Below, one piece after another: positions 6,182-27,374 of a stretch of 37,794 bases of DNA; the stretch's first letter is position 1, and every line of letters starts with the position of its first letter. Origin of the DNA: Acidobacteriota bacterium (GTDB lineage: Bacteria; Acidobacteriota; Terriglobia; Acidiferrales; UBA7541); NCBI GenBank assembly GCA_023481105.1, contig JAMCWK010000096.1, forward strand, positions 1 to 37,794, given 5' to 3'. A model generated the notes under the pieces. That model was not told where the DNA came from and made no database searches. It saw nothing but the letters and a program-made list of their open reading frames with translations. A program made the translations under genes and the position numbers.

Positions 6182-6183
6182 GA

Positions 6184-8956: not shown

Positions 8957-8976
8957 GGGCGCTGCATGCAGCGCCC
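8957..8976. repeat. Perfect 20-bp palindrome between rpiB and deoC
   Basis: GGGCGCTGCATGCAGCGCCC is its own reverse complement. On the plus strand it is followed by CTAC, as the repeats at 1273 and 5116 are followed by GCTACA, suggesting a related interspersed family. The CTA at 8977-8979 is the rpiB stop codon on the minus strand. Confidence 0.7.
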
Positions 8977-9588: not shown

Positions 9589-9589
9589 G

Positions 9590-10135: not shown

Positions 10136-10278
10136 GGAACATCCACCTCCGCCCGGAAGCTGCGAGAGAACAAGGCGGGTAGAGTAGCGCAGACCCAGCG
10201 AGAGAACAAGCAGGAGCGGGCCAGTATCACAAAACGGTCAAGCGGCTTTCACACAGCCGTAATCCACAAGAGGCATGC

Positions 10279-10308
10279 TTGACAAGTCGCTCGGGGCAAC
10301 TTTAGAGT
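10279..10308 (+). promoter_or_regulatory. Candidate sigma-70 promoter upstream of the Oar-like gene
   Basis: TTGACA at 10279-10284 and TAGAGT at 10303-10308 are separated by 18 bp. The -35 is perfect and the -10 matches TATAAT at four of six positions. It lies in the 343-bp divergent gap between hpt and the receptor gene; the rest of the gap shows no gene or other clear element. Confidence 0.45.
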
Positions 10309-10478
10309 AAGCGGCATCTTGGGGGTGGGGTGATCGTCAAGCTCGCAGACAGAATGCACAGCGCAAGGGACGCTAAATTTAACGGAAATCGTGCGCAAGA
10401 GTGTGCGGGAATCCTGCCTATTTTTGGGGTGAGCATTTGTGGCGGAACGGAAACGAAGACCAAGCGGGAGGAGTAATG

Positions 10479-13400: not shown

Positions 13401-13688
13401 AAGGAAGGGGTCTTCTTCAACATTACGGTGGACTTCTTCAACCTTTTCGACTTCGACAACGTCGTGTTCGGCTTTTCGAGAAAAATTTACGGCACTGGCG
13501 TCAGCTCCACTTCCGGAGCTATCCTGGCGCCGAGCTCGACGTTTTTGCAGCTCTACAACCCATCCTCGTGCCTTACACCAACGAACCCGACCGGGAACAA
13601 GAGCTGCTACGACACGCAAAACACCGTCAACACCATCGGAACCGGCGGCCCATTCCAGATGCAAGTGGGCATCCGCTTCCAGTTCTAA
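10479..13688 (+). CDS. Oar-like TonB-dependent outer-membrane receptor with carboxypeptidase-regulatory-like domain
   Basis: Outer-membrane protein of about 1069 residues. A signal peptide (MVVFFAVLVLLLAPTASAQ) is followed by a carboxypeptidase-regulatory-like fold (GQIVGTVYDASGASVPGAKV through GFKTFKSDINV), a plug-like segment (ELPINGRRFHDFVQL, IDGADYNQP, EYGRTSSGTMNAVTKSGSN) and a long beta-barrel ending in the aromatic MQVGIRFQF. This architecture is common and highly paralogous in Acidobacteriota; substrates are generally unknown. ATG 10479 is preferred over 10476 because GGGAGGAG at 10466-10473 is then better spaced. It lies just left of the presumed island and is followed by a clear hairpin. 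Confidence 0.88.
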   Translation: MNRKHWGECGLGMVVFFAVLVLLLAPTASAQSQGTGQIVGTVYDASGASVPGAKVTVTGKATGLLREAESNQDGGYRVVLLPPGLYAVEVRQTGFKTFKSDINVSVGSAVTVDAHLQVGQVTEVVEVTATVVIETTAVQTDALINQRSISELPINGRRFHDFVQLTPTAQIEPARQGISFAGQRGINANITIDGADYNQPFFGGIRGGERSNSAFSIPQEAIQEFQIVAYGATAEYGRTSSGTMNAVTKSGSNDWHGSGFYLVRHKDMAKKDAFNRQSLDNQHQFGGSFGGPIRRDRSFFFVTAEQQLIDNPRLVRFSRLDTGSSFAGRTTANGEAFDFYRALETPFTQTNDATSLLGKWDEQLTSNHRVSVRYLWSTNTANNAVATGNQISPETSNALSNNGTEGDRQHTVVGNWTGIMSPRIVNEFRGQYSWEKRPRLANANLAGIGNTVGSTGTRSFLSTTQKDYRVQLADNMSWNIGSHALKFGGEFNYLFADQFFQFNQFGIFSISGSNVDTVLNILSLDPTNPNDRRFDSTAVSYRVNIGNGLAEMKMQEFALFFQDQWRIHPRLTLTAGLRWEGYWNPSPATSNTTLVAAVRSATLPFGSLDPGKIPDNLDQIMPRVGLAWDPWGNGKTVIRLNGGIYYARTPLLLFAGPINNFRTPAGDLSVQLPLALPTGYVCTPMAAGDTCNTVYWQMRRIGIDLNTFSLGNLPTLTPAQIQGIATGLALPFDPNQGVAPITMANNYESPRSWQWNVAFQHEVANGLTVGADFVYINTVHLERNRDWNIPAPVVGATDLSLRQCYGLRGGTPCSTRARPIPTLNSVQVRETISRALYRGTTLRASYRRKNYQFQAYYTISTNYSDDDNERDAGGLSYENAFNLQPEYNYSNLDARHLFVFNSVVNLPWDFSVSGLVKMRSGRSLDASTGGDTNGDFGGPDRPYQKPGVPFLRNSFRDRPSYAADLRVAKRINLPKEGVFFNITVDFFNLFDFDNVVFGFSRKIYGTGVSSTSGAILAPSSTFLQLYNPSSCLTPTNPTGNKSCYDTQNTVNTIGTGGPFQMQVGIRFQF

Positions 13689-13714
13689 ACAGAGACAGCA
13701 ACGCTCCGCACCAA

Positions 13715-13744
13715 ACGGGCGTCCCGGGCAATCGGGACGCCCGT
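13715..13744 (+). terminator. Strong hairpin after the Oar-like gene
   Basis: ACGGGCGTCCCG and CGGGACGCCCGT pair perfectly over 12 bp with a 6-base loop, 27 bp after the stop codon. The tail TTGCATTT is only weakly T-rich, so termination is likely but not certain. Confidence 0.65.
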
Positions 13745-13789
13745 TGCATTTATGCGCGGATTATTCTGCGGACGAGATTTCGAGAGTGA

Positions 13790-13819
13790 TGGTAGGGGCG
13801 GTGGGGATCGAACACGACC
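13790..13819 (-). repeat. Left attachment-like repeat: 3' fragment of tRNA-Lys
   Basis: Positions 13790-13813 are identical to the 3'-terminal 24 bases (including CCA) of tRNA-Lys at 25080. The match then continues as ACGACC after a 2-base deletion relative to the true T-arm. No acceptor 5' strand, D-arm or Lys anticodon arm follows, so this is not a functional tRNA. Confidence 0.75.
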
Positions 13820-14551
13820 CCAAAATTCTAAGTCCCGTGCTATGTCGGCGTTGCAACCGCCTGCCAAGTCCAAGTGCTGATTCTGCTGACAGTGCGAGAT
13901 ACGACGACTCAAAGGGGTGGTTCTCGGCGAAAGGAGGTCCACGGCAGAGAGGGAAGATTGTTGCGCCCAGGATCGTTCCAGATCTGTGGCTCTGGGGCTA
14001 GCGTTGAAATGCAGCGGCCAACCCAAGAGCAACGCGGGTCATCGGGGATGAACCACCACCGGGCCGAGGCGAGGGCCAAGTTCTCGCTTCTCGGCCGTCG
14101 TGATTTGGAGTAGAAGGTTCGCTCTCTGCTCCCCGTGATTGCTGGAACAAATCGGGAACGTCACGCTCGATAAGCGTTAGATGCTCGGTCCATCGGGGAG
14201 CATGCGCGTGTCATCAGGCTGAATCCAACTGCTACAACCTACTGCAAATTCTAGTGTTGTTGCACTTGGGACCCATGTAGTCTTCCCATGCTTATCGGCA
14301 TGGGGTGTGATAATGCACTGAAATCTGGAGCACTTAGCGCGATTTCCCGCAAAGGTCACTGACTCGGAACCCAAGTTCACCCTTAAATCTCACAGTAGGG
14401 CAGCTAAGTCACTTTAAATCAAATCGTCAGACAGAGCACGTCCAGTTTTGGGGCTGGAACGACAAGTGCAGCTGATGGCCCTAGCGGTTCCGTATTGGCC
14501 CTGGGAACCACTTTGGAATTTGATCGACCGAGAAACGGCTGGAAAGAGCTA
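13820..14551. other. Gene-poor left end of the island
   Basis: About 730 bp without a convincing gene. Short open frames here show no domain or ribosome-binding site. The stretch next to the attachment repeat (GACTTAGAATTTTGGGG on the minus strand) looks faintly like a tRNA anticodon arm but does not fold into one by eye. The cytochrome cluster promoter should lie near 14400-14540, but I cannot identify good hexamers. Confidence 0.5.
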
Positions 14552-16000
14552 ATGGTTCAGGATCGCCAGAATCTTGCTGGAGTGCTTCTGTTATTGCTGC
14601 TGCCCATTTTCGCCAATGATGGGCTGGCGCAAACCCCACATCCGGCTGTCCCCCGCACGACCGATGGAAGTGCTTTCGACTTCAATAGTTGCAAGCAGTG
14701 TCATGAAGCAAAGCTCAAGGGCACCTCGGTGCATGCAGCCGTGCAAGTGGGCTGTGACGCTTGCCACGCCGTTGAACACTATAAGAACGAAACGGATATT
14801 TATGTTCGCTCTGAGGGCAATGAGCTCTGCTACGAGTGTCATGAGGACAAGAAGCCCAAAACTTCACAGACCACTCTTCACTTTGCTCTCCGTAAGGAAC
14901 CGTGTACCACCTGTCACGATCCGCACAGCTCCGCTGCCCCCCATCTGCTGAAGCGCGCTGCCGAAGGCCGCGACCATGAAAGTAACCTCTGCCTCACGTG
15001 CCACACCCAGATCGAAGCACTCTTGAAGAAGCCGACGCAACATGCAGCGGTGGACATGGGTTGTGCAACATGTCACACCACGCACAGGAGCGAGCCTGCC
15101 GGAGAGCCGGAAGGAATTTTCCATTTGAACAAACCTCCCGCGGCGCTCTGTTTGGAATGTCACGGGGCGGACGTTCCTGCGCTGCGAAAGGCCCACCAGG
15201 ATCAGCCGATTGAGAAAGCCAACTGTGCGGAGTGCCATAACCCGCACGGTTCGGACGCCCCGAAACTCTTGAATAGCTTTGTGCATGCACCGTTTGCCGC
15301 CGGATGCGACACATGTCATGCGGCGGCAGTCGACGGCAAGATTCAGTTGCTCGACGGGGCACGGCGCACTCTGTGCCTGGCATGTCACAGCAACATCGAG
15401 GAACAGCTCCAGCAGGCAAGAGTAACGCATACACCTGCGGAGATGGAGGAAGGCTGTGTGACGTGCCACAGCCCGCACGCCGCAAGTTCGCCGCGCCAAT
15501 TGCGGCTCGGACCTGTGCGCACTTGTTTTGTCTGCCATGAGGAATTGGCGGAAGCGCGAGCGACGAAACAGCATCTCCATCAGCCCGTTTTTGCACAAGG
15601 CTGCTTTGTGTGCCATCAACCGCACGGTGGCGCACAAAATCATTTACTCCGCGCCGAAACGAACGACCTGTGCATGGAATGTCACAACCCTGGCATCGCC
15701 GCTACAGTGCGTACGCAGCGCAGGGACAAGAAGGCTGTCGAATTGTTCGGGGGAAAAGTCGAAATCTTTCCCGATGCACTCGCGAGAATTCCAACCATCG
15801 ATCTGCTTCCCAGCAAAGACAAAGGGCACCCGCTCATCCCACGCCATCCGGTCCGGGGAAAATATCAACTCGGGGACAACATGACCTGCGTGACGTGTCA
15901 CACGCCGCATGCGGCCAACGGAAATCCAAAACTCTTTGTGACGGAATCCGCCGCACAACAGGAGCTTTGCCGGAAGTGTCACCAGGAGGACAAGAAATGA
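14552..16000 (+). CDS. 16-heme c-type cytochrome, exported
   Basis: The 482-residue protein has a signal peptide (LAGVLLLLLLPIFANDGLAQ) and sixteen CXXCH heme-binding motifs: CKQCH, CDACH, CYECH, CTTCH, CLTCH, CATCH, CLECH, CAECH, CDTCH, CLACH, CVTCH, CFVCH, CFVCH, CMECH, CVTCH, CRKCH. Many are followed by NPH, SPH or TPH, the doubled-CXXCH pattern in which neighbouring histidines act as second axial ligands. The pattern recalls MtrA/DmsE decahemes, but longer. ATG 14552 is preceded by GGAAAGAG at a good distance and starts the signal peptide; upstream in-frame starts only add an unlikely tail. Its stop overlaps the start of the NHL gene (ATGA). Likely role: periplasmic or outer-membrane electron wire. 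Confidence 0.9.
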   Translation: MVQDRQNLAGVLLLLLLPIFANDGLAQTPHPAVPRTTDGSAFDFNSCKQCHEAKLKGTSVHAAVQVGCDACHAVEHYKNETDIYVRSEGNELCYECHEDKKPKTSQTTLHFALRKEPCTTCHDPHSSAAPHLLKRAAEGRDHESNLCLTCHTQIEALLKKPTQHAAVDMGCATCHTTHRSEPAGEPEGIFHLNKPPAALCLECHGADVPALRKAHQDQPIEKANCAECHNPHGSDAPKLLNSFVHAPFAAGCDTCHAAAVDGKIQLLDGARRTLCLACHSNIEEQLQQARVTHTPAEMEEGCVTCHSPHAASSPRQLRLGPVRTCFVCHEELAEARATKQHLHQPVFAQGCFVCHQPHGGAQNHLLRAETNDLCMECHNPGIAATVRTQRRDKKAVELFGGKVEIFPDALARIPTIDLLPSKDKGHPLIPRHPVRGKYQLGDNMTCVTCHTPHAANGNPKLFVTESAAQQELCRKCHQEDKK

Positions 16001-17118
16001 AGCGGCGCACAATTGAGTCCGTGTGGATAACCACATTCTTGATCGCGCTCATCCTTTCGGGCGGTGTGTCGCAAGGGGCTGCGCAATCCAAAGGAAAAGG
16101 TCAGGAACAAAAGCCAGGCACGCAAGAGCTGGTGTGGCCGCTTCTGCCGGATCCGCCGCGCATTCGCTGGGTGGGACAATTCTCCAGCGCCGAGGAAATC
16201 GAGCAGAAAAGGAAAAAACAAAGCTGGTTTGAAAGAGTGGCTGGCGCAAAGCAAGAAAAAGAAAAAGAACGGCGGCTGGCTTCGCCCTACAGCATTGCAG
16301 CGGATTCACGGGGACGAATCTTTGTGGCTGACTGGCTTTCGGGCGGCGTTTTGGTATTCGACCAATCGGCACGCAAGGTAGACGTGTGGGGGCCAGAGCG
16401 CGGGCTGCAAATGCGCATGCCACTTGGCGTGACCGTGGGCGAAGAAGACCGCGTGTTTGTTGCTGACGCCACGTTACGGACGGTGCTGTGTCTGACCAGC
16501 GATGGAAAACTAGTGCGCCAGTTTGGTGCCGACAAGTTGGAACGCCCGGTTGGTTTGGCGGTGGATAAGGTCCGGCACCGGCTCTATGTGTCGGACACCA
16601 AGGGCAACCGCATCGCCGTGTTCAATTCCGAGTCCTTTGAGTTCATCAAGTACATCGGCGAAAAGAGTGCAGCGGGAGAACCAGGGAAATTCCGGTCACC
16701 GCTCGGCATTGCCGTGGATAAGCGGGGATTCCTGTATGTTGTGGACACGTTCAACCATCGGGTGCAGATCTTCAACCGGCAGGACAGATTCCAGCGCGCG
16801 TTTGGCACTCACGGAAACGGCATCGGCCAATTTGCCCGGCCGAAAGGCGTGGCTGTGGACTCCGACGGAAACATCTACGTGACCGACGCGGAATTCAACA
16901 ACTTTCAGATTTTCAATCAGCAGGGACAACCGCTCCTGTTCGTGGGCGTTCGCGGAGTTCAGCCGGGGCAGTTCACTCTCGTCACCGGCATTTTCATTGA
17001 CGAGAAGGATCGGATCTACACGACGGAGCCGCAGTTCAACCCCCGCGTTCAGATTTTCCAGTACATCTCTGAATCTCAACGAGCTGGAGGAAAGGAGGTG
17101 GGTCCGGACAAGAAGTGA
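15997..17118 (+). CDS. Exported six-bladed NHL-repeat beta-propeller protein (first)
   Basis: The 373-residue protein has an N-terminal signal sequence (VWITTFLIALILSGGVSQGAAQ), a charged helical stretch (EEIEQKRKKQ, EKEKERR), then six NHL repeats. Clear blades include MPLGVTVGEEDRVFVAD, RPVGLAVDKVRHRLYVSD, SPLGIAVDKRGFLYVVD and RPKGVAVDSDGNIYVTD. NHL propellers are protein- or ligand-binding scaffolds without a fixed catalytic function. The start overlaps the 16-heme gene stop by 4 bp, so the two are translationally coupled, pointing to a joint complex or assembly role. It is similar in plan to the NHL proteins at 19810 and 23128. Confidence 0.88.
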   Translation: MKRRTIESVWITTFLIALILSGGVSQGAAQSKGKGQEQKPGTQELVWPLLPDPPRIRWVGQFSSAEEIEQKRKKQSWFERVAGAKQEKEKERRLASPYSIAADSRGRIFVADWLSGGVLVFDQSARKVDVWGPERGLQMRMPLGVTVGEEDRVFVADATLRTVLCLTSDGKLVRQFGADKLERPVGLAVDKVRHRLYVSDTKGNRIAVFNSESFEFIKYIGEKSAAGEPGKFRSPLGIAVDKRGFLYVVDTFNHRVQIFNRQDRFQRAFGTHGNGIGQFARPKGVAVDSDGNIYVTDAEFNNFQIFNQQGQPLLFVGVRGVQPGQFTLVTGIFIDEKDRIYTTEPQFNPRVQIFQYISESQRAGGKEVGPDKK

Positions 17119-17201
17119 CCAATTGTTTGAGATCAATCTGCAACTCAACGTCCCGAATTGCAGTGATTCGGATTGAATTCTGCCAAGGAGGACAAACAGA
17201 A

Positions 17202-17879
17202 ATGAGGCTTCGGAACCTAGTAATTCTCATTGCTCTCATCGCCCTTGTTGCCGTGGGTGCGTATGCCCAGAAAGCCGGGCTGGCCACCGATACCCAACAC
17301 GGCGCAGTGGGAACGACACCGTGCGGGAGTTGCCATACACCGCACGGCGGAACCAACGGCGTGTCGTTGTTGTGGGTGCATTCGATCGGTACGTCCACCT
17401 ACACCACGTACACCTCTTCAACAATGGGCAACCCGACAACCAACATCACTTCACCGGGCAACGGCAATCTGACCGCCGGCGCGCCGGTGAACAACACTCT
17501 TCTCTGCGTGAGCTGCCATGACGGAGCGCTCGCAGCTGCACAAACCCCGGCGATTACCTTGAAAACCGCCACGTATGGCACGGCGGGCTCAGCCATCTCC
17601 GGAACGGCAATTGACGTCGCTGGCGGCACGAAAACGCTGACCGACGACCACCCGGTCAACATGTCCCACAATCCTACGAACGATGCAGGGTTGGACACTG
17701 TCGCCAACGTCACCGCCGCCGGCTTGGTGCTCTATTCGGGCGGCGGCTCGACTAACACTGTGCAGTGCGGGTCTTGCCATGATCCGCACAAACAGGGACC
17801 GCAAGGCGGCCCGGGCGTTGGGAACTATCTGCGCAAGACCAACGCGGCGTCAGCCCTTTGCCTTACCTGTCATTTGTAA
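17202..17879 (+). CDS. Tetraheme c-type cytochrome, exported
   Basis: The 225-residue protein has a signal peptide (LVILIALIALVAVGAYAQ) and four CXXCH motifs: CGSCH, CVSCH, CGSCH, CLTCH, the last being almost the C-terminus. Between the first and second lies a Thr/Ser/Asn-rich segment (TYTTYTSSTMGNPTTN), and LTDDHPV precedes the third. The same order of landmarks occurs in the N-terminal part of the larger cytochrome at 20851, so this looks like a free-standing version of that module. AAGGAGGA at 17185-17192 supports ATG 17202. It is followed by a strong hairpin before the beta-barrel gene. Likely periplasmic or surface electron carrier. Confidence 0.87.
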   Translation: MRLRNLVILIALIALVAVGAYAQKAGLATDTQHGAVGTTPCGSCHTPHGGTNGVSLLWVHSIGTSTYTTYTSSTMGNPTTNITSPGNGNLTAGAPVNNTLLCVSCHDGALAAAQTPAITLKTATYGTAGSAISGTAIDVAGGTKTLTDDHPVNMSHNPTNDAGLDTVANVTAAGLVLYSGGGSTNTVQCGSCHDPHKQGPQGGPGVGNYLRKTNAASALCLTCHL

Positions 17880-17898
17880 TGCAACTTCAACCCCTTTT

Positions 17899-17925
17899 GG
17901 GAGGGGCCGTATCACGGCCCCTCCC
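17899..17925 (+). terminator. Perfect 12-bp hairpin between tetraheme cytochrome and porin genes
   Basis: GGGAGGGGCCGT and ACGGCCCCTCCC pair over 12 bp around ATC, 20 bp after the cytochrome stop and 24 bp before the porin start. No T-tract follows. It may be a partial terminator or an mRNA-stabilising hairpin that sets different levels for cytochrome and porin. Confidence 0.55.
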
Positions 17926-17948
17926 GAAGGGAAGCGAAGGAAACCGGC

Positions 17949-19808
17949 ATGAAGCCAATCGCGCAGTTTCGCGAGAAAAGTCTGCCCCTCATTGCTGCGA
18001 TGATCCTTTGCGCATTGCCGTTGGGAGCGCAGCAGAAACCTGTACAACTCCGTGGCGAGGTCGTCACGGGATATGCGAGCACCAATGCCGTAGATGGAAG
18101 TCATCTTACGCAGTCCGTCTCGCCGTTTGGCCTCTTTTTTGATTTGAATACATACCTCGGGCATCCGGATTTCCTGAGTATTCGCGTGCAGCCGCGCGTC
18201 AATTTCGGAGGTGAGGCGCCGCAGGCCGGATTCGATGGCCGGGACGGCGTTCAGGTGGCCGCCGAATTTCTGCGTCGCAGAGCATTCCCGTTGAGCTTCA
18301 CTTATTCCAACTTCCGAACCGACGCCATCAATTTTGGTTCCCTGGTGGGGCTGAATGCGGTGCGTCAGAAGTCCCGCTACAGTGATCTGGGTGTGAGCTG
18401 GCAAATCAACGCCCGGCGCTTGCCGAGGCTCATTTTTTTCTACAACCAAAGTGATTCCAGGAACCGGCCCGAGATTGATGTCCTTCCAGCCTATTCGTCC
18501 CACTACTCCACCTATGGTGTGCGCGGAAGCGACCATGTGTGGGGCTGGGATATCAACGGCGAGTGGTCCAGATCCCGGCGCGCAACGGATTCGGCAAGTT
18601 CCATTCTTCCAGACCTGACCACTTATGTCTTCCGCCAGAACATCAATGGGGGCCACGTTTCCGCCCAGCGAACCTTTCGAAAGAAATATCAGATCTCGCT
18701 GCTGGGCGGGCGCGAGAACAGCAAGAATTCTATCGACGGGATGCCGCTGGATCAAAGCAGAACATTTGTTCGCGGGGCAGGGTTCCTTCAATTCTCCAAG
18801 CGATTGAATGCACAACTCGACATGGGCTACGACTCCAACGTGGACGACAGCTACCAGCGGGTGTTCGGTGGATCGCCTCCGGGTGGGATGACGCTGCTGC
18901 TTCGCACCGGCCTCAGTACCTTGAGCGCTTCCGGACAAGTCCGCTACAAGATCAGTCGCGATTGGAATGTGAACGGAGGCCTCAACCGCAACCGCGTGCA
19001 TAGCCGATTTGGGTCCAATGCCACGTTTGACGGCGCCTCGTGGGGCGCCAATGCGGGCCTCGGCTACAACCATTCGTTTCGCAAGGGACAACTCAGCGCC
19101 GGCTACACCGTGGGCCTCACGCGGGCCGCGATTGCCAACGACGGGCTCGGCAGCAACACCCTGGGGCACACGCTGAGCATGCAGTATCGCGCGGGACGAT
19201 TGGAGTCCCTCGAATTCACTGTCCTGAGCATGTTGAGTGTGAACCGTGTGGAGAGTAACATCTTTCTGACGCAGAAAAATGCCCACACCGACGTGACGCT
19301 GGGCCGCAAAATCGGAAAATATACTTTGCAGGGCGGAATCGTTTACCAGCAGATTCGCAGTGAGAACTATTTCGATTTTCGTTCCCATGATCTCGGATTC
19401 CGTGCGAGCCTGGACAATGGCTTCATCAATCTTCGATACGCACGGAACACGATTGATGGACGCTCCATCGTGCTCGCATCGCTTGCGAACGGATTAGTTG
19501 TCAGCAATCCCGTTGCGGGGTTGCCACTTCAGACCGTACTGACGTCTTCGGCCCGGCAAATGGTGAGCGTGGGACTTCGGCCCTGGAAAAAAATGCAGAT
19601 TCAAACCAACTGGTTCCAGTTGGATCAGTCTCTCGCAGACCGGCTTCGTACGACGAGTGATTTCTTTGACGTTTCCGTTTCGTACAGCTTTCGGCTTCTG
19701 GACTTCCAAGTCGGTTACACACTCTATGATCAAAGCCTGGTTGGACTGCCGGGTGTTTCGCGGCGCAGTTTCTTTTTCCGCGTACGGCGCTCGTTCCGGG
19801 TGTTTTGA
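17949..19808 (+). CDS. Putative outer-membrane beta-barrel (porin-like, MtrB/PioB-type role suspected)
   Basis: The 619-residue protein starts with a signal peptide (LPLIAAMILCALPLGAQ). The rest is full of alternating-hydrophobicity strands rich in aromatic, Gly, Asn and Arg residues, for example NAGLGYNHSFRKGQLSAGYT and FDVSVSYSFRLLDFQVGYTL. It ends in RRSFRVF, a C-terminal phenylalanine typical of BAM-inserted barrels. No TonB box or plug domain is visible. Its place among four multiheme cytochromes suggests the porin sheath of a porin-cytochrome conduit such as MtrB or PioB, but I cannot show sequence homology to those families by eye. An ordinary porin is the main alternative. Confidence 0.72.
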   Translation: MKPIAQFREKSLPLIAAMILCALPLGAQQKPVQLRGEVVTGYASTNAVDGSHLTQSVSPFGLFFDLNTYLGHPDFLSIRVQPRVNFGGEAPQAGFDGRDGVQVAAEFLRRRAFPLSFTYSNFRTDAINFGSLVGLNAVRQKSRYSDLGVSWQINARRLPRLIFFYNQSDSRNRPEIDVLPAYSSHYSTYGVRGSDHVWGWDINGEWSRSRRATDSASSILPDLTTYVFRQNINGGHVSAQRTFRKKYQISLLGGRENSKNSIDGMPLDQSRTFVRGAGFLQFSKRLNAQLDMGYDSNVDDSYQRVFGGSPPGGMTLLLRTGLSTLSASGQVRYKISRDWNVNGGLNRNRVHSRFGSNATFDGASWGANAGLGYNHSFRKGQLSAGYTVGLTRAAIANDGLGSNTLGHTLSMQYRAGRLESLEFTVLSMLSVNRVESNIFLTQKNAHTDVTLGRKIGKYTLQGGIVYQQIRSENYFDFRSHDLGFRASLDNGFINLRYARNTIDGRSIVLASLANGLVVSNPVAGLPLQTVLTSSARQMVSVGLRPWKKMQIQTNWFQLDQSLADRLRTTSDFFDVSVSYSFRLLDFQVGYTLYDQSLVGLPGVSRRSFFFRVRRSFRVF

Positions 19809-19809
19809 T

Positions 19810-20850
19810 ATGCATAAAATCGCGACGATCTTAGCGTCATTGTGGGTTGCGCTGTTTTCTTCAGGAGGAAGCGGCCTTCCCACGCCTCCGCCTGCAGAAA
19901 ATTCGAAGTTCTCCGCTTCCGCGCCAATGGGTGCGATCGACTATCTCCGATCGGTGGACGCGCGCCAGGTGGATGCGCTTGCCAAGCCTCATTCCTTCTT
20001 CGGAAAGCTGATGGAGATCGTTGCAGGCCCGGCCGAAAGGCCGCGGCTCGTGAGGCCCCTGGGAATTACGGAAGATTCGCGCGGACGGCTGATCATCGCA
20101 GATCCGGGGCAGCGGGTGGTTCATCTGCTCGACATAGAAAAGAGGGAATACAAATTCATTGCCCGCGGGAAAAACCGTGCATTCCAATCCCCCGTGGGAG
20201 TGGCCGTGGATGGCCGGGACAACATCTATGTCAGCGACTCTGCCCGTGGAGAGATTTCCGTATTTGATGCCAAAGGCAAATTCCTGCGCGTGATCGGAGA
20301 GAAGACGGGGACCGGCCCCCTCCAGAGGCCCACCGGAATTGCTGTTGACCCGCTCGGGCGGCGTCTGTTCGTGACGGACACTCTGCAGCACCAGGTCCTT
20401 GTTTACGATCTGGAAGGCAAGTGGATTCGAACAATCGGTCGCCGCGGAGCAGAGATCGGAGAATTCAATTTCCCGACGTTCCTCGCGCTTTCGGGCGGCC
20501 GGCTCTACGTTGTGGACTCCATGAATTTCCGAATTCAGATGTTTTCACCGGACGGCAAGGCATTGGGAACCTTTGGCCATCTGGGGAATCGCAGCGGCAC
20601 CTTGAACCGACCCAAAGGCATTGGCGTGGATAGCGACGGCAACATCTACGTGGTGGATGCCCTGTTTGAAACCGTGCAAGTATTCGATAGCGAAGGGAAG
20701 CTCCTGTACTACTTTGGTTCAAGCGGATCGAAGCCCGGGCAGTTCGTTTTGCCCACAGGGATCTACATCAATCCGCGTAACCTGATCTATGTCGCGGATT
20801 CCTACAACCGGCGCGTGCAAATCTTCCGGTATCGGAGGGTGACGCCTTAA
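19810..20850 (+). CDS. Exported six-bladed NHL-repeat beta-propeller protein (second)
   Basis: The 346-residue protein has a short N-terminal hydrophobic segment (IATILASLWVALFSSGG), probably a signal peptide, then a Pro/Ser-rich linker and six NHL blades: RPLGITEDSRGRLIIAD, SPVGVAVDGRDNIYVSD, RPTGIAVDPLGRRLFVTD, FPTFLALSGGRLYVVD, RPKGIGVDSDGNIYVVD and LPTGIYINPRNLIYVAD. ATG 19810 lies 1 bp after the porin stop and the next cytochrome starts immediately after this gene's stop, so the three genes form one tight transcription unit. Probably periplasmic or surface-exposed; a scaffold or maturation partner of the adjacent cytochrome is an inference. Confidence 0.88.
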   Translation: MHKIATILASLWVALFSSGGSGLPTPPPAENSKFSASAPMGAIDYLRSVDARQVDALAKPHSFFGKLMEIVAGPAERPRLVRPLGITEDSRGRLIIADPGQRVVHLLDIEKREYKFIARGKNRAFQSPVGVAVDGRDNIYVSDSARGEISVFDAKGKFLRVIGEKTGTGPLQRPTGIAVDPLGRRLFVTDTLQHQVLVYDLEGKWIRTIGRRGAEIGEFNFPTFLALSGGRLYVVDSMNFRIQMFSPDGKALGTFGHLGNRSGTLNRPKGIGVDSDGNIYVVDALFETVQVFDSEGKLLYYFGSSGSKPGQFVLPTGIYINPRNLIYVADSYNRRVQIFRYRRVTP

Positions 20851-22740
20851 ATGCCCTTCTCGACGCCAACCCGGGTGCAGCGTCGCGCGACAATGTGGGC
20901 CGTGATTGTTGTGCTGTTCCTGGCTATTCCCGTCGTGGCGGGCCCGGATTCGACGCGGGCCGTGATTGCTTCAAAGCACAATCTCTCCGTGAGTGGCCCT
21001 GGCCCTGTCACTTCTTCCAAAACGGACGCCTGCATTTTCTGCCACACGCCGCACACGAGCGACGTGAATACAAAGCCGTTGTGGAATCACGCGCTGCCAA
21101 ACCAACCCTACAATACCTATACCAGTTCCACTTACAACGCCGGTGCCGGGACTCCCGCGTCGGGCTCGTCTAAACAGTGCTTAAGCTGTCATGACGGCAC
21201 GGTGGCCCTCGGGCTGACGATTTCTGAGGGTTTGATTCCCACGTCCGGGAGCATGGGTGCACCAGCAGTTCTCGGCACGGACTTGACCAATGATCACCCT
21301 GTCGCCGTCCAGCCGGTAGATGATGGTCAGCTGCACTTGAATCTCTTCCAGTCGCCGCCGAGCACAGGCGATCCCAGCGTTAACCTGGTTCTGGGGAAAA
21401 TTGAGTGCACGTCGTGCCACAATCCGCACGAACCGGCACGCGACGCCGTGGTGCAGAAGTTCCTGGTCCGTTCCAACAGCGGAGGCACAATTTGCCTTGC
21501 CTGCCACAGTCCTTCGCGCCCGCAGCCAAACATGCTGAATGGCTGGGCCACAGGCTCACATTCCACGGCGACAAATACAGTGCCGACCACGGCGTCGTTC
21601 GGTCCCTATGGAGCGGTGAACACCAATGCCTGCGGCAACTGCCACAAGCAGCACGGAATGGCGGCAGGCGCAGCGCAAAGACTCCTGTACGCAGTTGAGG
21701 AGGCGACTTGCAGTCCGTGCCACTCCGGTGCAAATGTCACGCCGGCTCTCCGCAACGTTCTGGGAGAATTCGCAAAGGCATACAGCCACCCCACCACGAC
21801 GGTGGCAGGAAGCCACGATGCTGCCGAGAGTGTTGCTCCCGTCAATGCGAATCGGCACGCCGAATGCGTCGATTGCCACAACCCGCATCCGGCGAGCAGT
21901 ACGGGCGGCGCCGCCAATCCTCCTGGTGTTGAATCTCCGTTGTTGGGAATCAGCGGGTACAACGGGGCCGGCGCGCTGCGTCCAGCAAGCAACGAATATG
22001 AAGTCTGTTTTAAATGTCACGCGGACAGCACCAACAAGCCACAATCCACTGCCGGCTACAGTGCCTATGGACGCACGCCGGTACGCGTGACCAATGCAAC
22101 CGCGGTGGATCCTTATAATCTCCGCCTCAAATTTGCTTCTGGCGTGGCCCGGCACAATGTGTCCAACCCTCGGCAGCGCACGGCAGTCCAAATGCCGAGC
22201 TTGCGCGCCAACATGCTGAATCTCGACGGGTCCGCCGGACGGTCGCTCGCTGCCGGTACCTACATTTACTGCACGGACTGCCACAGCAACAACCAGGCAA
22301 GGAAATCGAACGGAACGGGTCCCAACGGCCCTCATGGATCCACATGGAACCATTTGCTGGAGCGTCGGTACGACTTGGAGCCGCTGCCGCCAGGAGGCCC
22401 GGGCGGAAGCAGCACCGGTGTTCCCTTCGTCACGGGGATTAGTGGTACTGCGGGCGTATGTTACAAGTGCCACGACATTGACACCAGCATCCTTTTGAAT
22501 CAGAGCTTCAAGGAACACGACACGCACGTGCGCGGCGCAGACATTTCCTGTTCAAGCTGCCACGATCCGCACGGCATCCACGGTGGAACTTCTGCCAACA
22601 ATTCGAACCTTATCAATTTCGATGTGGCGATTGTTGCTCCGACTTCGGGAGGAGTCTTGCGCTTTAACGATCAAGGAAATTTCACCGGCCGGTGCTACCT
22701 GCGATGCCATGGAAAAGACCACAACCCGCTGTTCTACTAG
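20851..22740 (+). CDS. Large multiheme c-type cytochrome: 11 CXXCH plus one CX3CH
   Basis: The 629-residue exported protein has signal segment MWAVIVVLFLAIPVVAG. Eleven CXXCH motifs are visible: CIFCH, CLSCH, CTSCH, CLACH, CGNCH, CSPCH, CVDCH, CFKCH, CTDCH, CYKCH, CSSCH. A twelfth site at the C-terminus is CYLRCH, a CX3CH variant followed by GKDHNPLFY. The N-terminal third parallels the tetraheme protein at 17202. ATG 20851 abuts the stop of the NHL gene; ATG 20893 is a shorter alternative just before the signal core. Long Ser/Thr/Gly-rich stretches between hemes resemble extracellular cytochromes. Probable outer-surface electron carrier; partners are the porin and NHL proteins. Confidence 0.88.
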   Translation: MPFSTPTRVQRRATMWAVIVVLFLAIPVVAGPDSTRAVIASKHNLSVSGPGPVTSSKTDACIFCHTPHTSDVNTKPLWNHALPNQPYNTYTSSTYNAGAGTPASGSSKQCLSCHDGTVALGLTISEGLIPTSGSMGAPAVLGTDLTNDHPVAVQPVDDGQLHLNLFQSPPSTGDPSVNLVLGKIECTSCHNPHEPARDAVVQKFLVRSNSGGTICLACHSPSRPQPNMLNGWATGSHSTATNTVPTTASFGPYGAVNTNACGNCHKQHGMAAGAAQRLLYAVEEATCSPCHSGANVTPALRNVLGEFAKAYSHPTTTVAGSHDAAESVAPVNANRHAECVDCHNPHPASSTGGAANPPGVESPLLGISGYNGAGALRPASNEYEVCFKCHADSTNKPQSTAGYSAYGRTPVRVTNATAVDPYNLRLKFASGVARHNVSNPRQRTAVQMPSLRANMLNLDGSAGRSLAAGTYIYCTDCHSNNQARKSNGTGPNGPHGSTWNHLLERRYDLEPLPPGGPGGSSTGVPFVTGISGTAGVCYKCHDIDTSILLNQSFKEHDTHVRGADISCSSCHDPHGIHGGTSANNSNLINFDVAIVAPTSGGVLRFNDQGNFTGRCYLRCHGKDHNPLFY

Positions 22741-22837
22741 TTTCTTAAGCGGCCGCCCCAAAGGTGCCGGTTATAGCACGGCTAAGGAATGCCACCTGAC
22801 TTGCCATGGTACTGGTCACAATCCAAAGAGGTACTGA
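22741..22837 (+). pseudogene. Remnant of a second cytochrome C-terminus
   Basis: Directly after the cytochrome stop, in another frame, the DNA encodes GAGYSTAKECHLTCHGTGHNP, then KRY and a stop at 22835-22837. This parallels the preceding gene's end (GRCYLRCHGKDHNPLFY), including a CX3CH motif, GxxHNP and a terminal Tyr. No start or upstream body exists, so it seems to be the tail of a deleted or recombined paralogous cytochrome. The following 290 bp up to 23128 show no recognisable gene. Confidence 0.7.
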
Positions 22838-23127
22838 ATCAGGAGCAAGAACTAGAGCCGAGTATGCGAGCCAACGAAAAATCGTATCCCTTTCGGTGCT
22901 TTGCACGGCACAGCGGAACACGACGAGACTCTCACCCCTGGAAGCTCGCGAATTGCGCTTTCTGTGGATTGCCAGGGAAGCGAGTACGCACTCCAGATTT
23001 GGACCGCGGAGCCGTGACACTGAAATGGCTTCAATTTCAATCGATTATGCAATCGTCGCCTTGCGTAGGATTGGCTATCGATTTGCCTGCAAATTGAGGT
23101 TGGGGTAGTTCTGCGGAGAGGTGCGTC

Positions 23128-24123
23128 ATGTGCGATCGAAAACATATCCAAGTCATGAGTCGTCTTGGCCATCCGTTGGGGATTGTCTTCCTTCTCCTGT
23201 TCTTTCTTGCCAGCACTTGCGTGAACGCACAAGTCCCTGCCTCCCCGCGGCGGATCGCAGAGCTGGACAAGAAAGCGATCCTGATTACAGACATCAATAC
23301 AGACTTGCAAGGAACGCTAGTGGCACTGGACAAGGCGACGATGCAGGTCGTTTGGACTTGCACGGTGCCCGGAGAGCCATTGGGCGTGGCGCACTGGAAG
23401 AACCTGTACCTAGTAGGTGATTCGGCATCGGGCAATGTCAGCGTCTATCGAATGGCCGGCGCAAACAGAGGCCTGCCCTGCTCAGGCACCGCGGCTGGAA
23501 AGTCGCTGGAGTTCCTGTTCAACTTGGGCCAAACGCAGCCCGGGGCCCCGGGATTCTTCCAAAAGGTTAATGACGTGGCCCTGGACGTGGACCTGCAGCG
23601 CATTTTCGTTGTGGACACGGGCGAGAAAAAAGTCAAGGTTTTTGACAACAAAGGAAATTTTCTGCATTCATTTCCGGAAATTGCGCCGACTTTGCTGAAT
23701 CCGACGGCGATCGCTGTGGATGAGACGAGGCAGGAAGTCCTCGTCAGCGATTTCGGGGATCCCTCTGGGAGCTTCAGTCCAACAGTCCCTCCCAGAATCA
23801 TGATCTTCAGTTATTCAGGCAACTACCTTGGTCAAATCACTAGCGATTCATCGAATGCCTCCAGCTACTTTTCAAAACCTCAGGGTCTAAGCGTAGATGG
23901 ATCTGGGCAGGTCTTCCTGGTTGATGCGTTTCTGGCAAAAGTGCTTGTGTTGGATCGTGTCACAGGGGCTTGGATCCGATCTTTCGGCGGGCCGGGCGAT
24001 CAACCCGGTGACTTAAAACTTCCCCTCGATTTGTTGCTCGACCGCGCTACAGGAGATGTATTCGTCACCAGCAACATGACTGGGCGCGTGGAAGTTTTTC
24101 GTACCGCAGGGAGGGTCCCATGA
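23128..24123 (+). CDS. Exported NHL/beta-propeller protein (third, divergent)
   Basis: The 331-residue protein has signal segment IVFLLLFFLASTCVNAQ. The first third is PQQ-like (GTLVALDKATMQVVWTC, then LYLVGDSASGNVSVYR). Four NHL-like blades follow: VNDVALDVDLQRIFVVD, NPTAIAVDETRQEVLVSD, KPQGLSVDGSGQVFLVD and LPLDLLLDRATGDVFVT. It is more divergent than the other two propellers. ATG 23128 has GGAGAGG a short distance upstream; ATG 23155 is an alternative. The gene end overlaps the next cytochrome by 4 bp (ATGA), repeating the NHL-cytochrome coupling seen twice upstream. Confidence 0.83.
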   Translation: MCDRKHIQVMSRLGHPLGIVFLLLFFLASTCVNAQVPASPRRIAELDKKAILITDINTDLQGTLVALDKATMQVVWTCTVPGEPLGVAHWKNLYLVGDSASGNVSVYRMAGANRGLPCSGTAAGKSLEFLFNLGQTQPGAPGFFQKVNDVALDVDLQRIFVVDTGEKKVKVFDNKGNFLHSFPEIAPTLLNPTAIAVDETRQEVLVSDFGDPSGSFSPTVPPRIMIFSYSGNYLGQITSDSSNASSYFSKPQGLSVDGSGQVFLVDAFLAKVLVLDRVTGAWIRSFGGPGDQPGDLKLPLDLLLDRATGDVFVTSNMTGRVEVFRTAGRVP

Positions 24124-24764
24124 AAACGGGTGTCCGCAACTTTTTTATTGTCGCTTGGATTTCTTCAGTTGCATGTCTTGGCACGTCACTGGCGCGTGCT
24201 CAAACTTCGCGAAATGCCATCAAGGTGAACTGCGCCATGTGCCACAGCGCTCATGGAGGATTTTCATTCCTGCTGAATCAAGCTGATGTCGAGCTGCTGT
24301 GCTTGAGTTGTCATGGTCCCGGCGGCATCGCAACTGAAGCTGCGGTGCACTACAACGCCAAGACGACCTATCCAGCGTATCGCATCACCTGTCTCGGTTG
24401 CCATAACGCCCATTACGACCTCTCCAATCAGGTCGGCACAAAAAACATCGAACTTGTTGCAAACGTTCGCGACGACACCAACGGCGCGAAGATTAATACG
24501 CCACCCAACGACGGTGGACCGTGCCTCGACCCCGTTCCGGGCGGTGGTTGTTACCGCATTCAAGTCTTTGCGGATCGCACTCTAACAGGAGCCCAGTCAA
24601 ATTGGGCCTCAACTGCACCACCTTATCGCGGTGCCTGCAACGTTTGTCACACGCGCACAGGTCACCACCAAAATAGCGACTTGGATTCGACGGCGGATCA
24701 CACACACAACATCAATAGAGTTTGCACTTCGTGCCATCTCCACACGAAAGGCTTTATCAAATAA
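24120..24764 (+). CDS. Pentaheme c-type cytochrome, exported
   Basis: The 214-residue protein has signal segment FFIVAWISSVACLGTSLARAQ and five CXXCH motifs: CAMCH, CLSCH, CLGCH, CNVCH and CTSCH. Extra histidines (SAHGG, NAHYD, TGHHQNS, DHTHN) may act as distal heme ligands. Two further cysteines (GGPCLDPVPGGGCYR) are not in heme motifs and may form a disulfide. It starts inside the end of the third NHL gene (ATGA overlap) and is the last gene of the cluster. Probably a periplasmic or surface electron carrier. Domain order differs from the 4-heme and 12-site proteins, so it is a distinct subfamily. Confidence 0.87.
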   Translation: MKTGVRNFFIVAWISSVACLGTSLARAQTSRNAIKVNCAMCHSAHGGFSFLLNQADVELLCLSCHGPGGIATEAAVHYNAKTTYPAYRITCLGCHNAHYDLSNQVGTKNIELVANVRDDTNGAKINTPPNDGGPCLDPVPGGGCYRIQVFADRTLTGAQSNWASTAPPYRGACNVCHTRTGHHQNSDLDSTADHTHNINRVCTSCHLHTKGFIK

Positions 24765-24884
24765 CAGCTAACAGCACGCAGACCGATTCCCTACTTCCTG
24801 AGGCTGTGAAACGGTTCTCGGTGGCGGGGGGGGTGAAATTCTCTCTCTCTCTCGCTCCCGCTGGCACAGAAAGCCCCGTTCAGG

Positions 24885-25025
24885 TCACCCATAACAGTTG
24901 TTCAGGCACATCTACAACACACTGAAGCACGTATGACGCTCGAACTTTACGGACATGTAATTCCAGAGTCCCAGCGCGACGCAGTGACGCACTCGCGGAG
25001 AAAATCAGCGGAGCCCAATTGCTGA
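24885..25025 (+). pseudogene. Decayed C-terminus of a tyrosine recombinase (integrase)
   Basis: The frame reads VVQAHLQHTEARMTLELYGH, then VIPESQRDAVTHSRRKS and a stop at 25023-25025. This matches the end of phage/ICE tyrosine integrases: the H(S/T)xxRMTLExYGHVIPxSQRDAV block with the nucleophilic Tyr (codon 24948-24950). The rest of the gene is missing; a poly-G run and a CT repeat lie just upstream (about 24825-24855). It sits 55 bp from the tRNA-Lys 3' end, the expected place for the integrase of an element inserted in that tRNA. Confidence 0.75.
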
Positions 25026-25079
25026 CTGGGGCTCCAACCGCTGACTCGACTCCGTAAATGTCTTTTGTTCAGTGAGGTT

Positions 25080-25154
25080 TGGTAGGGGCGGTGGGGATCG
25101 AACCCACGACCTTCGGCTTAAAAGGCCGCTGCTCTACCACTGAGCTACGCCCCT
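25080..25154 (-). tRNA. tRNA-Lys (anticodon UUU), CCA encoded
   Basis: The minus strand folds into a full cloverleaf. Acceptor AGGGGCG pairs with CGCCCCT; the D-arm is GCTC/GAGC. The anticodon arm has loop CTTTTAA, giving anticodon TTT (Lys), with a terminal mismatch in the stem. The T-arm is GTGGG/CCCAC with loop TTCGATC. Discriminator A is followed by genomically encoded CCA. It is flanked by the integrase remnant. Confidence 0.95.
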
Positions 25155-25207
25155 GCGGACCTTTCATTGTAAAGGCTGATGGGCGAGGCCGCAACCGGGC
25201 CTGCGGG

Positions 25208-25558
25208 TTAGCGTTCAACCATCGTGGGCACAGCGCGTTTGCGCTTCCACTGGTGCTCGCGACGCACCTTGGCTTGGTGCTTCTTAATCTGCGTGCAGAG
25301 ATCCGAAAATGCGTCCTTGATGCACTTGCGGACGTCCGGGCAGTCGCCGGAGGCGTACAGGCTGCCTGTGGGCAGGGCGAGGTTCAGAGAGAATCCAAAG
25401 GCTGCTTTGCGGGGATGCTTTTCCACCGAGGCGTGGACCTGCACCAAATCCGGTGCATAGGTTTTCAAAAGCTTTTTGAGTTTAGCTAAGTGATGTGCGA
25501 CTTCGGTTTCGATCGGTTCGCGCAAATCCACATTCTTGTAGCTGAGCGAAAGTTTCAT
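25208..25558 (-). CDS. hpf: Ribosome hibernation promoting factor (HPF/RaiA family), short form
   Basis: Binds the ribosome in stationary phase and blocks translation. The 116 residues match the short HPF form: MKLSLSYKNVDLREPIE, a helix (HLAKLKKLLKTY), HASVEKHPRKAAFGFSLNLALP, LYASGDCPDVRKCIKDAF and a basic C-terminal helix (KKHQAKVRREHQWKRKR). ATG 25558 begins the family fold, with AAAGG upstream; longer in-frame starts add unrelated sequence. The long C-terminal dimerisation domain of long HPF is absent. It lies between tRNA-Lys and a divergent DUF72 gene. Confidence 0.87.
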   Translation of the reverse strand: MKLSLSYKNVDLREPIETEVAHHLAKLKKLLKTYAPDLVQVHASVEKHPRKAAFGFSLNLALPTGSLYASGDCPDVRKCIKDAFSDLCTQIKKHQAKVRREHQWKRKRAVPTMVER

Positions 25559-25775
25559 CTGCGCACCTTTGCTTGCGGGAGTGTGAAACGGGATGCCACC
25601 GAAGGTTAAGGCGTGGACCCATCTTCCAACTCCACAATAGCAAGACAAACCGGAGGAAGCAACCCGCGCGAGCTCCGCGCGCCCGGAGCTGCTTGTGGCG
25701 CGGACGCGGTTGACACTGAAGGGAAAAACGTCATAGGCTGCGCTCCCCCGCCGTTCTTTCCGGCTGCGCGCTACG

Positions 25776-26750
25776 GTGACGGCAGCGGCCCAGAGCGCGG
25801 CGGAAGCAGGGGCGTCCGTGGGACCCGCGCGAAAATCCGCGAAGCAGGAGCCGGGCAAAGTGTTCGTCGGACCGGCGGGGTGGTCGTACGCGGACTGGGC
25901 GGGCATTGTGTACCCGGCGCGGAGGCCGCGCGGTTTTCACGAGGCGGCATACCTTTCTGAATACTTCGACACCATCGAAATCAATACTTCCTTCTACCAG
26001 CCGCTGCGTCCGGCAGTGTGCTGGCAGTGGCTGGAGCGCGTGGCGGGTAACCCGCGTTTTCTCTTCACTGCAAAATTGTGGCAGCGCTTTACGCACGAAA
26101 CCGGCGCCACATCCGCGGACGAGAAAGCTGTGCGCGGGGGTTTCGACCTGTTGATGGGCGCCGAGAAACTGGGCGCGGTTCTGCTGCAGTTCCCTTTTTC
26201 ATTCCACAACATCCCGGAGAACCGCGAGTATTTGCAGAAACTCGTGGCGCGGTTCCGGGAGTATCCGCTGGCAGTGGAGGTTCGCCATTCGACGTGGAAT
26301 GACAAGAAGTTTTACGAGATGCTGCAGGAGTTCGGCGTGGGGTTCTGCAATATTGACCAGCCGGTGATCGGAAAATCCATCAAGCCGTCGGAGCGTACCA
26401 CCGGGCTGGTGGGCTACGTGCGCCTGCACGGGCGACGCTACGACACGTGGTTTAGCGACGACCCCACAGTGCCCTCGGAAGAGCGCTACAACTACCTCTA
26501 CACCGATGCCGAGCTGGAGCCCTGGGCGGAGCGCATCCAGAAAGTGCGCGCGCGGGCCAAAACTACTTTCGTCATCACCAATAACCACTTTCAAGGAAAA
26601 GCCATCGTCAACGCGCTACAGTTGATCCGCCTGCTCACCGGCAGCAAAGTGAAAGTGCCGGAGCCGCTGCGGCACCACTATCCGCAGCTCGACGCGATTT
26701 CCGACAAGCCCGAGCAGGAGCCCACGCTGTTTCCCAACCCGCCGCGGTAA
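25776..26750 (+). CDS. DUF72 (YecE-like) family protein
   Basis: TIM-barrel-like protein of unknown function, 324 residues. The family opening VFVGPAGWSYADW starts near residue 29, followed by FDTIEINTSFYQPL, RFLFTAKLWQRFTHE, LGAVLLQFPFSFH, LAVEVRHSTWNDK, GFCNIDQP, GYVRLHGRRYDTW and TFVITNNHFQGKA, all landmarks of DUF72. The start is uncertain: GTG 25776 gives a poorly conserved Ala-rich lead, and GTG 25818 or 25860 would be closer to the family start. No clear ribosome-binding site decides it. It is divergent from hpf; the 217-bp gap shows nothing else recognisable. Confidence 0.85.
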   Translation: MTAAAQSAAEAGASVGPARKSAKQEPGKVFVGPAGWSYADWAGIVYPARRPRGFHEAAYLSEYFDTIEINTSFYQPLRPAVCWQWLERVAGNPRFLFTAKLWQRFTHETGATSADEKAVRGGFDLLMGAEKLGAVLLQFPFSFHNIPENREYLQKLVARFREYPLAVEVRHSTWNDKKFYEMLQEFGVGFCNIDQPVIGKSIKPSERTTGLVGYVRLHGRRYDTWFSDDPTVPSEERYNYLYTDAELEPWAERIQKVRARAKTTFVITNNHFQGKAIVNALQLIRLLTGSKVKVPEPLRHHYPQLDAISDKPEQEPTLFPNPPR

Positions 26751-26769
26751 AAACCACGAAGACGAAAAG

Positions 26770-26831
26770 CGAAATTCGAAAAACGAAAAGCGGGAGAACG
26801 TCCACGAAGGGAGGCCGTTTTTCGATTTTCG
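26770..26831. terminator. Inverted repeat between convergent DUF72 and zinc-ribbon genes
   Basis: CGAAATTCGAAAAACG (26770-26785) and CGTTTTTCGATTTTCG (26816-26831) pair with one mismatch over 16 bp. The right arm is T-rich on the plus strand and touches the stop of the minus-strand gene. Probably a bidirectional terminator for two convergent genes. Confidence 0.5.
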
Positions 26832-26832
26832 A

Positions 26833-27297
26833 TTATTTCTTAAAGAGGTCGTCAAAGGCTTTGCGCGCGGAGTCGGGTCGCAGGCCCGCGGTGGGAGCGG
26901 CCGACGAAGCGGGGGCCGAAGGAGCGGTGTCTTTCTCGACGGTGGTGCGGAAAACGTAGAAGGTGCACTTGTTGGCGGTGTCTTTTTTGGGAATGCGGTC
27001 CGGGATTGGCTGCATGCATTCGAAGCGCGCGCCGGTGTCGAAATAGAGGCACTGCTTACAGGAATGAAGTTGCGCTTTGCAGCGCGGGCACTGGCCGTTG
27101 ACGTCGAAGCCGGGCACGAGCACGGTGCCGCAATGGGCGCAACGCGCGCGCGTAATCGAGCCCACCATGCGCGGTGTGCGCGGGCCCATTTGATCCTGTC
27201 GAGGGCGTGGCTCCGGAGAACGTTCTTTGGGTTTTTCTTTACGTTCCCGCTTGTCTGAGTCCTGGTAGCCCCGATGGCCGTACTTGCGCTCGGACAT
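26833..27297 (-). CDS. Small zinc-ribbon protein of unknown function
   Basis: The 154-residue, probably cytosolic protein has a charged, disordered N-terminus (about residues 1-45, rich in Arg, Lys, Glu and Pro). Paired cysteines follow: CAHCG and CPRC form a likely zinc ribbon, then CKQCLYFDTGARFEC and a later Cys in ANKCTFYVF give a second cluster. The C-terminus is Ala/Pro-rich and ends in a helix (ARKAFDDLFKK). ATG 27297 has GGAGG at a good distance; longer in-frame readings have no support. I do not recognise a characterised family. It might bind RNA or be a small regulator, but nothing here shows that. Confidence 0.75.
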   Translation of the reverse strand: MSERKYGHRGYQDSDKRERKEKPKERSPEPRPRQDQMGPRTPRMVGSITRARCAHCGTVLVPGFDVNGQCPRCKAQLHSCKQCLYFDTGARFECMQPIPDRIPKKDTANKCTFYVFRTTVEKDTAPSAPASSAAPTAGLRPDSARKAFDDLFKK

Positions 27298-27374
27298 AGG
27301 CGCCTCCGGGGGGGATGAGCCATCATACTCCCTATTGCCGCGCAGCAGAGCAAATTTGCGCGGCACTGTGGAAA

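Follow-up and report, generated by a model that had tools for sequence, protein, structure and literature searches.

The undecaheme electron transfer (Uet) complex is found in Tenderiales and some Gallionella, and its parts, as listed in excerpts of its description, are an undecaheme cytochrome (UetJ), an extracellular tetraheme cytochrome (UetA), triheme cytochromes (UetD, UetE and UetG), a prolyl isomerase (UetB), the NHL proteins UetH and UetI, and a barrel (UetC) (PMC10734462). The PDB entry 7tfs is, by its title, the OmcE nanowire of Geobacter sulfurreducens, and excerpts of two papers report that one heme ligand of OmcE is shared across the subunit interface (PMC9473688, PMC12307469). 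Here we describe a gene cluster related to both, in a stretch of 37,794 bases from an Acidobacteriota bacterium (contig JAMCWK010000096.1; this whole stretch is the window, to which all coordinates refer). The cluster is carried on an island at a tRNA-Lys gene and, as far as the excerpted description of Uet allows, fits a variant of a Uet-type module. We put at roughly 0.6 the probability that it is a Uet-type extracellular electron transfer module consisting of a conduit, an OmcE-type wire and a junction between them formed by its 12-heme cytochrome, cytC.

The eight reading frames of the cluster are all intact and lie on the + strand. The 16-heme cytochrome cytA (14552–16000) is followed by the beta-propeller NHL1 (15997–17118), the tetraheme cytB (17202–17879), an outer-membrane beta-barrel with a C-terminal Phe (17949–19808), NHL2 (19810–20850), cytC (20851–22740), NHL3 (23155–24123) and the 5-heme cytD (24120–24764). 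CXXCH motifs total 36 over the four cytochrome open reading frames (ORFs), being 16, 4, 11 and 5 in cytA to cytD, and a single CX3CH occurs at residue 615 of the 629-amino acid (aa) cytC ORF. When all six frames were scanned, only one further CXXCH was found elsewhere in the window (minus strand, 12918), so the clustering of heme motifs is not due to chance. Pfam detected multiheme families in four proteins and NHL repeats in three (PF01436 E-values of 9.8e-31, 3.3e-33 and 1.4e-9 for NHL1, NHL2 and NHL3). Propeller and cytochrome genes are tightly joined: the start of NHL1 lies within the stop of cytA and that of cytD within the stop of NHL3, each giving a 4-bp overlap, while between NHL2, ending at 20850, and the outer ATG in the cytC frame, at 20851, there is no gap. 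An initial annotation, made from the sequence alone, had listed four multiheme cytochromes, three NHL propellers and one barrel, with 36 CXXCH, one CX3CH and NHL-cytochrome junctions of 4 bp or zero gap; the motif counts, Pfam matches, barrel model and coordinates agree with it on each point, and the CX3CH proved to be conserved.

The correspondence with Uet was judged by parts and heme counts rather than by sequence against Tenderia. On the excerpted description, cytC with its 11 CXXCH and one CX3CH resembles UetJ, cytB with 4 CXXCH resembles UetA, the single large barrel resembles UetC, and NHL1 and NHL2 resemble UetH and UetI. The island differs in having no three-heme ORF (UetD, UetE, UetG), with the 16-heme, MtrA-like cytA present instead, and a UetB-type prolyl isomerase is encoded only in a second copy of the module in this genome, not in the window copy. 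The window copy also has the extra NHL3-cytD pair, sits on a tRNA island and has an acidobacterial host. Because the trihemes are replaced by a 16-heme protein, this is a Uet-type variant rather than plain Uet, and since the gene set recurs across phyla and fits what is excerpted of Uet, it is not a new kind of cluster. The gene order had not been recognised in the initial annotation, but a search for it in other genomes found the core order in many genomes and phyla, and the same parts are described as Uet (PMC10734462, in excerpt), so that the idea of an order not seen before was rejected.

CytB is a homologue of OmcE, matching 7tfs over residues 9–224 of its 225 residues (E 2.9e-10). Its best sequence match is 9yuq (residues 7–224, E 3.9e-19), an entry of which no mention was found in the literature searched. 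Among the features expected of an OmcE-type subunit, cytB shows full-length sequence homology together with four hemes. The four heme His are invariant in 14 of 14 aligned sequences, and so are four candidate distal His (33, 48, 150 and 196). In the alignments, the second residue of the OmcE chain as modelled falls opposite the N-terminal His (residue 33 in cytB, residue 29 in cytC), and we infer from this that the His may be the equivalent of the ligand that OmcE shares between subunits. CytB is accordingly listed here as a predicted OmcE-type nanowire subunit that would polymerise.

CytC was modelled from an inner ATG at 20893 (615 aa), and its His numbering follows that form. In sequence searches residues 5–206 match 9yuq (E 2e-18). 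The AlphaFold2 model, made from 75 aligned sequences without templates (predicted local distance difference test, pLDDT, 84.4; predicted template modelling score, pTM, 0.84), had 7tfs as its sole Foldseek match below 0.001 (E 2.4e-7, TM 0.68 by target length). With VIA-align, model residues 28–206 superimposed on 7tfs with a Z of 11.2 and a root mean square deviation (rmsd) of 2.6 Å over 173 residues, the next row having a Z of 4.8. According to the model, then, cytC begins with a domain of the OmcE fold, to which a part with eight more hemes is joined. VIA-align of the whole-protein model returned no close known fold past residue 206, and since that part was not modelled by itself, a new fold does not follow from the missing match.

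In every one of the 12 heme motifs of cytC, Cys and His are invariant across the 75 aligned proteins, and this includes the CX3CH (C601, C605 and H606), which is a genuine conserved site. Exactly 11 CXXCH and one CX3CH are present in 74 of the 75, and 10 and one in the other. Twelve further His are likewise invariant in 75/75 (29, 135, 179, 223, 254, 299, 332, 421, 481, 542, 560 and 610), and His 54, 308, 322 and 545 are present in 73–74, so that conserved candidate ligands exceed the need of 12 hemes. The N-terminal domain could donate His29 to a neighbouring cytB. Since the other side of this domain continues in cis as the eight-heme part, where His223 is a candidate replacement ligand, cytC could take only an end position in a wire, and it may serve as a terminal adaptor between conduit and wire.

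The conduit would be formed by cytA and the barrel. CytA has about 30 residues per heme, and its best PDB sequence match is chain A of 6r2q (E 3.6e-11), which we take to be MtrA; the molecule name listed for that row does not fit the entry title. It scores 176.9 bits (E 4.9e-52) against the DmsE family TIGR03508, under the curated cut-off of 192.2 bits, and is probably, by this resemblance, a periplasmic or trans-barrel wire. The initial annotation had also not recognised the 16-heme protein; the 16 hemes stand, but the protein resembles MtrA, and 16 hemes recur in five relative stretches. The barrel gave no Pfam or NCBIfam family above cut-off, with OMP_b-brl sub-threshold only (E 0.067). Its AlphaFold2 model, built from 27 sequences, is a single large beta-barrel of about 28 strands by our count (pLDDT 80.0), and Foldseek ranks MtrB, from the Mtr complex, first (6r2q_B, E 3.8e-12; runner-up 5.3e-9). 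MtrB also gave the longest alignment among the listed VIA-align rows (489 residues, rmsd 5.3 Å). The cluster resembles MtrAB/PioAB in the Foldseek match of the barrel, which VIA-align leaves tied with other barrels, and in the decaheme-type sequence of cytA, and differs in that cytA has 16 hemes, not 10, misses the DmsE cut-off and is accompanied by no MtrC-type gene. As for the porin-cytochrome conduit proposed in the initial annotation, the barrel and cytA support it in part, whereas the NHL3-cytD pair lies outside the conserved core and the homologues of the OmcE wire had been missed.

A contig scan with the single barrel sequence detected no relative, because the barrel diverges fast. Between the window copy and other copies in the genus, barrel identity is 23–26% while that of cytC is 50–63%; the barrel (17949–19808 compared with L022–L025) evolves far faster than cytC, perhaps under surface pressure such as phage.

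The cluster occupies a compact, clean tRNA-site island (13790–25103), of which it is the only recognisable cargo. The island is bounded by perfect 24-bp direct repeats, 11,290 bp apart (repeat to repeat). The left one (13790–13813) is a copy of the 3′ end of tRNA-Lys, and the right one (25080–25103) lies within the target gene itself, a tRNA-Lys (TTT) on the minus strand (25080–25154; ARAGORN) that was left intact and is present as the same tRNA in a sister genome. That same-genus genome (G002, L151) aligns with the window from 2190 to 13819 (79% identity) and again from 25079 to 27375, its left flank running directly into the tRNA-Lys and right flank with no cluster sequence between. The island has a G+C fraction of 0.565, against 0.619 and 0.613 on either side. 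The repeats and the empty site support the term island-borne, which the initial annotation had used. No integrase ORF was found at the island margins, and of four integrase matches in the genome none is on the contig of the window.

Insertion was demonstrated for the window copy only. The possibility that the module is a habitual passenger of tRNA sites is not supported, as ARAGORN found 11 tRNAs in 60 loci, close to a rough expectation. In two other copies cytC is closely followed by a tRNA-Met (L024:7383-7459 and L031:7220-7296). An ORF antisense to the tRNA-Lys (25079–25489) reads GAVGIEPTT, and it is through its broken copy at 13790 that the left island end can be recognised. The alignment with the sister genome breaks once more at 27375, so that the two genomes differ again, to the right of the island.

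Relatives of cytC are present in 16 of 61 related genomes and in 21 of 297 genomes sampled across the phylum Acidobacteriota, the own genome being counted in both. Among 17 relative stretches (L022–L038), 12 have a barrel-sized ORF between the tetraheme and NHL2-cytC; two of the others are cut by contig ends (L028, L029), two hold cytC fragments (L037, L038) and in one (L031) the interval from tetraheme to NHL2 shows no intact ORF for a barrel (L031:9348-13106). Near the cytC fragment of L038 there is a 900-aa ORF with 27 CXXCH (L038:9972-12674). The heme number of cytA varies in these stretches, being 16 in L022, L025, L026, L027 and L035, 13 in L023 and 7 in L030, L033 and L034. Seven stretches have a gene of 317–410 aa between tetraheme and barrel, and all seven, when scanned, were PpiC/SurA-type prolyl isomerases. 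The second complete copy in the same genome (G000, contig C97, L025:7340-16817) is one that encodes a prolyl isomerase (L025:12151-13233); its cytC is 51% identical to that of the window, and the copy nearest to this second one, in G001 (L024), is 84% identical to it. A copy of the module is also present elsewhere in the sister genome with the empty site (L022).

A scan of named genomes confirmed at least 505 of at least 591 candidate stretches, and the best 80 were kept. By record title these come from Acidobacteria, Nitrospirae, Nitrospinota, Planctomycetes, Verrucomicrobia, Bacteroidetes, Proteobacteria, Deltaproteobacteria-type bacteria and others. Two of the 80 were dropped for lack of a full cytC by the rule applied, so that the core counts rest on 78 loci, 21 of them near a contig end. 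An NHL gene is nearby in 76 and directly upstream of cytC in 68, a barrel-like ORF is present in 61, a tetraheme in 55, all three of NHL, barrel and tetraheme in 48, and a prolyl isomerase in 22. Barrel-like is here a loose rule, meaning a heme-less ORF of 400–860 aa that either matches the barrel profile or ends in Phe or Trp, and as the loci were chosen by cytC, the counts describe its company rather than the abundance of the module. In other phyla the barrel has other multiheme proteins as neighbours, for example with 5, 9, 13, 14 or 19 hemes, and two trihemes adjoin it in two of nine stretches of a gammaproteobacterial class sample (L169, L172).

CytB and the first domain of cytC share sequence with Geobacter OmcE, and cytC its fold too, as modelled. 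In a sample of 297 genomes of the phylum Desulfobacterota, around a Desulforhopalus record (L103), 15 match OmcE at 1e-25, and two encode proteins 60% identical to it (53–54% by BLAST). Beside these orthologues are 10-heme and 8-heme cytochromes, an NHL gene and an ORF of 748–806 aa ending in Phe, so OmcE keeps company of the same type as the cluster, with the difference that a 12-heme cytC gene is not seen in L138 and L139, the two neighbourhoods that come closest. In Geobacter, excerpted sources list gsu0615-gsu0616-gsu0617 as one predicted unit (PMC1829397) and give omcE as GSU0618 (PMC13194489), next to gsu0617 by locus number. Another stretch of the Desulfobacterota sample (L142:1-8598) holds two adjacent OmcE-like genes, with a complete module downstream of them. 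Clusters of the osc and OetABI types, again from excerpts, encode the wire cytochrome OmcS with a conduit or channel, and the osc clusters also folding and morphology helpers (PMC13194489, PMC10553843). The present cluster is alike in encoding a wire-type cytochrome with a conduit or channel; there, however, the wire is built from the hexaheme OmcS, reported in excerpt to have no sequence similarity to OmcE (PMC9473688). No paper linking Uet to OmcE nanowires was found in a search that did not cover Eddie 2022, Shen 2025, Wang 2022 (OmcE) or Baquero 2023, any of which may state the link. Eddie et al. 2022 is reportedly the primary paper on Uet.

In the proposed mechanism, the barrel and the 16-heme, MtrA-like cytA would form an outer-membrane conduit, and once exported, the tetraheme cytB would polymerise into a surface-exposed, OmcE-type nanowire. 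CytC would sit at one end of the wire and pass electrons between wire and conduit, in either direction, since export and uptake are both possible. The NHL propellers would assist assembly or hold parts, with the folding of cytB aided by the prolyl isomerase that the second copy encodes. We suggest tentatively, as a possibility that goes beyond this locus, that UetJ-type proteins are the physical junction of a trans-outer-membrane conduit and an OmcE-type nanowire. Because the far side of the N-terminal wire subunit continues in cis with eight hemes, such a protein would take one neighbour only, and each wire would consequently have one defined polar end in one conduit.

Several observations weigh against the conduit-and-wire reading. 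The barrel model, with a pTM of 0.67, is of moderate quality, Foldseek superimposes it on MtrB with an rmsd as large as 12.2 Å, and in VIA-align the Z of 16.6 for MtrB is tied with unrelated barrels. The ORF list of the window copy and its island has no prolyl isomerase, and among the 78 loci a barrel-like ORF was not seen in 17 and a tetraheme in 23, partly owing to contig ends. An unrelated porin, the case that the initial annotation had itself raised, is not supported despite the ties, since MtrB is the best Foldseek match with a clear lead and the best PDB match of cytA is 6r2q_A. By analogy with the proposal for OscEFG of the Geobacter OmcS system, the barrel might instead be a secretion or assembly channel for cytB, with cytA as a periplasmic electron store or donor. 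The module does have similar kinds of parts, namely propellers and also a prolyl isomerase, which seven relative copies encode between tetraheme and barrel; but the best fold match of the barrel is MtrB, which sheathes a cytochrome wire, the cluster itself encodes an MtrA-like protein and other genomes have other multiheme cytochromes beside the barrel, so we regard a channel as rather unlikely.

It is similarly doubtful that there is no filament at all, cytB and cytC acting as monomeric outer-surface or terminal cytochromes of a short-range, Mtr-like complex. The excerpts on Uet speak of a porin-cytochrome complex whose tetraheme is extracellular, and not of a wire (PMC10734462), and the cytC model weakly matches OcwA (Z 4.8) and an S-layer cytochrome (Z 3.7) in VIA-align, yet in 14/14 sequences the His of cytB are arranged as in OmcE, four proximal and four candidate distal, the N-terminal His among them. 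If there is a wire, the geometry of cytC fixes only one of its ends and not which end faces the cell, and cytC might cap the outer tip, in contact with mineral. This we consider unlikely, as a position at the base fits better with cytC being encoded, across phyla, with a propeller and usually a barrel. That the island is a decayed or non-functional remnant, as the lack of an integrase in the island or on the contig and of a prolyl isomerase gene might suggest, is very improbable given eight intact frames and the retention of every heme motif in cytC.

According to excerpts of a review, the anchoring of cytochrome nanowires and the points at which electrons enter and leave them are unresolved (PMC12307469). 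The kind of gene set is known from Uet, and this version suggests how wires might plug into the cell: cytC, a wire subunit joined to an eight-heme part and accompanied almost always by propellers and usually by a barrel, is a concrete, testable candidate for the wire anchor. Should UetJ-type proteins be such junctions, the anchor and the electron entry point would be encoded beside the wire gene across many phyla, and a nanowire anchor would be mobile between genomes as an 11-kb island. Acidobacteriota are common in soils and groundwater. With cytC in 21/297 of the sampled genomes of this phylum and a whole module on a tRNA island, electron exchange may be gained in one step.

The same genome encodes further electron-transfer parts on contig C75 (L120:4484-19868 and L121:3-2417). 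They comprise a cytochrome b561 fused to a 13-heme protein, a protein of the NapC/NirT type, two proteins with 19 and 9 hemes, and a decaheme of the DmsE/MtrA family that scores above its cut-off and is followed by an 804-aa protein weakly like GSU2204. Their presence makes electron exchange with the outside plausible for this organism, as judged from its gene content.

The NHL3-cytD pair at the right end of the cluster is, judged by its distribution, accessory and outside the conserved core. A clear relative of NHL3 was found only in L042 (45% identity over 325 aa), where a relative of cytD (34%) is paired with an NHL gene. In a Phycisphaerae record, a single ORF open at the contig end (L071:1-2295) has an NHL propeller (residues 26–295) fused to an 11-heme part and matches both NHL3 and cytD, a hint that pairs of this type may bind each other.

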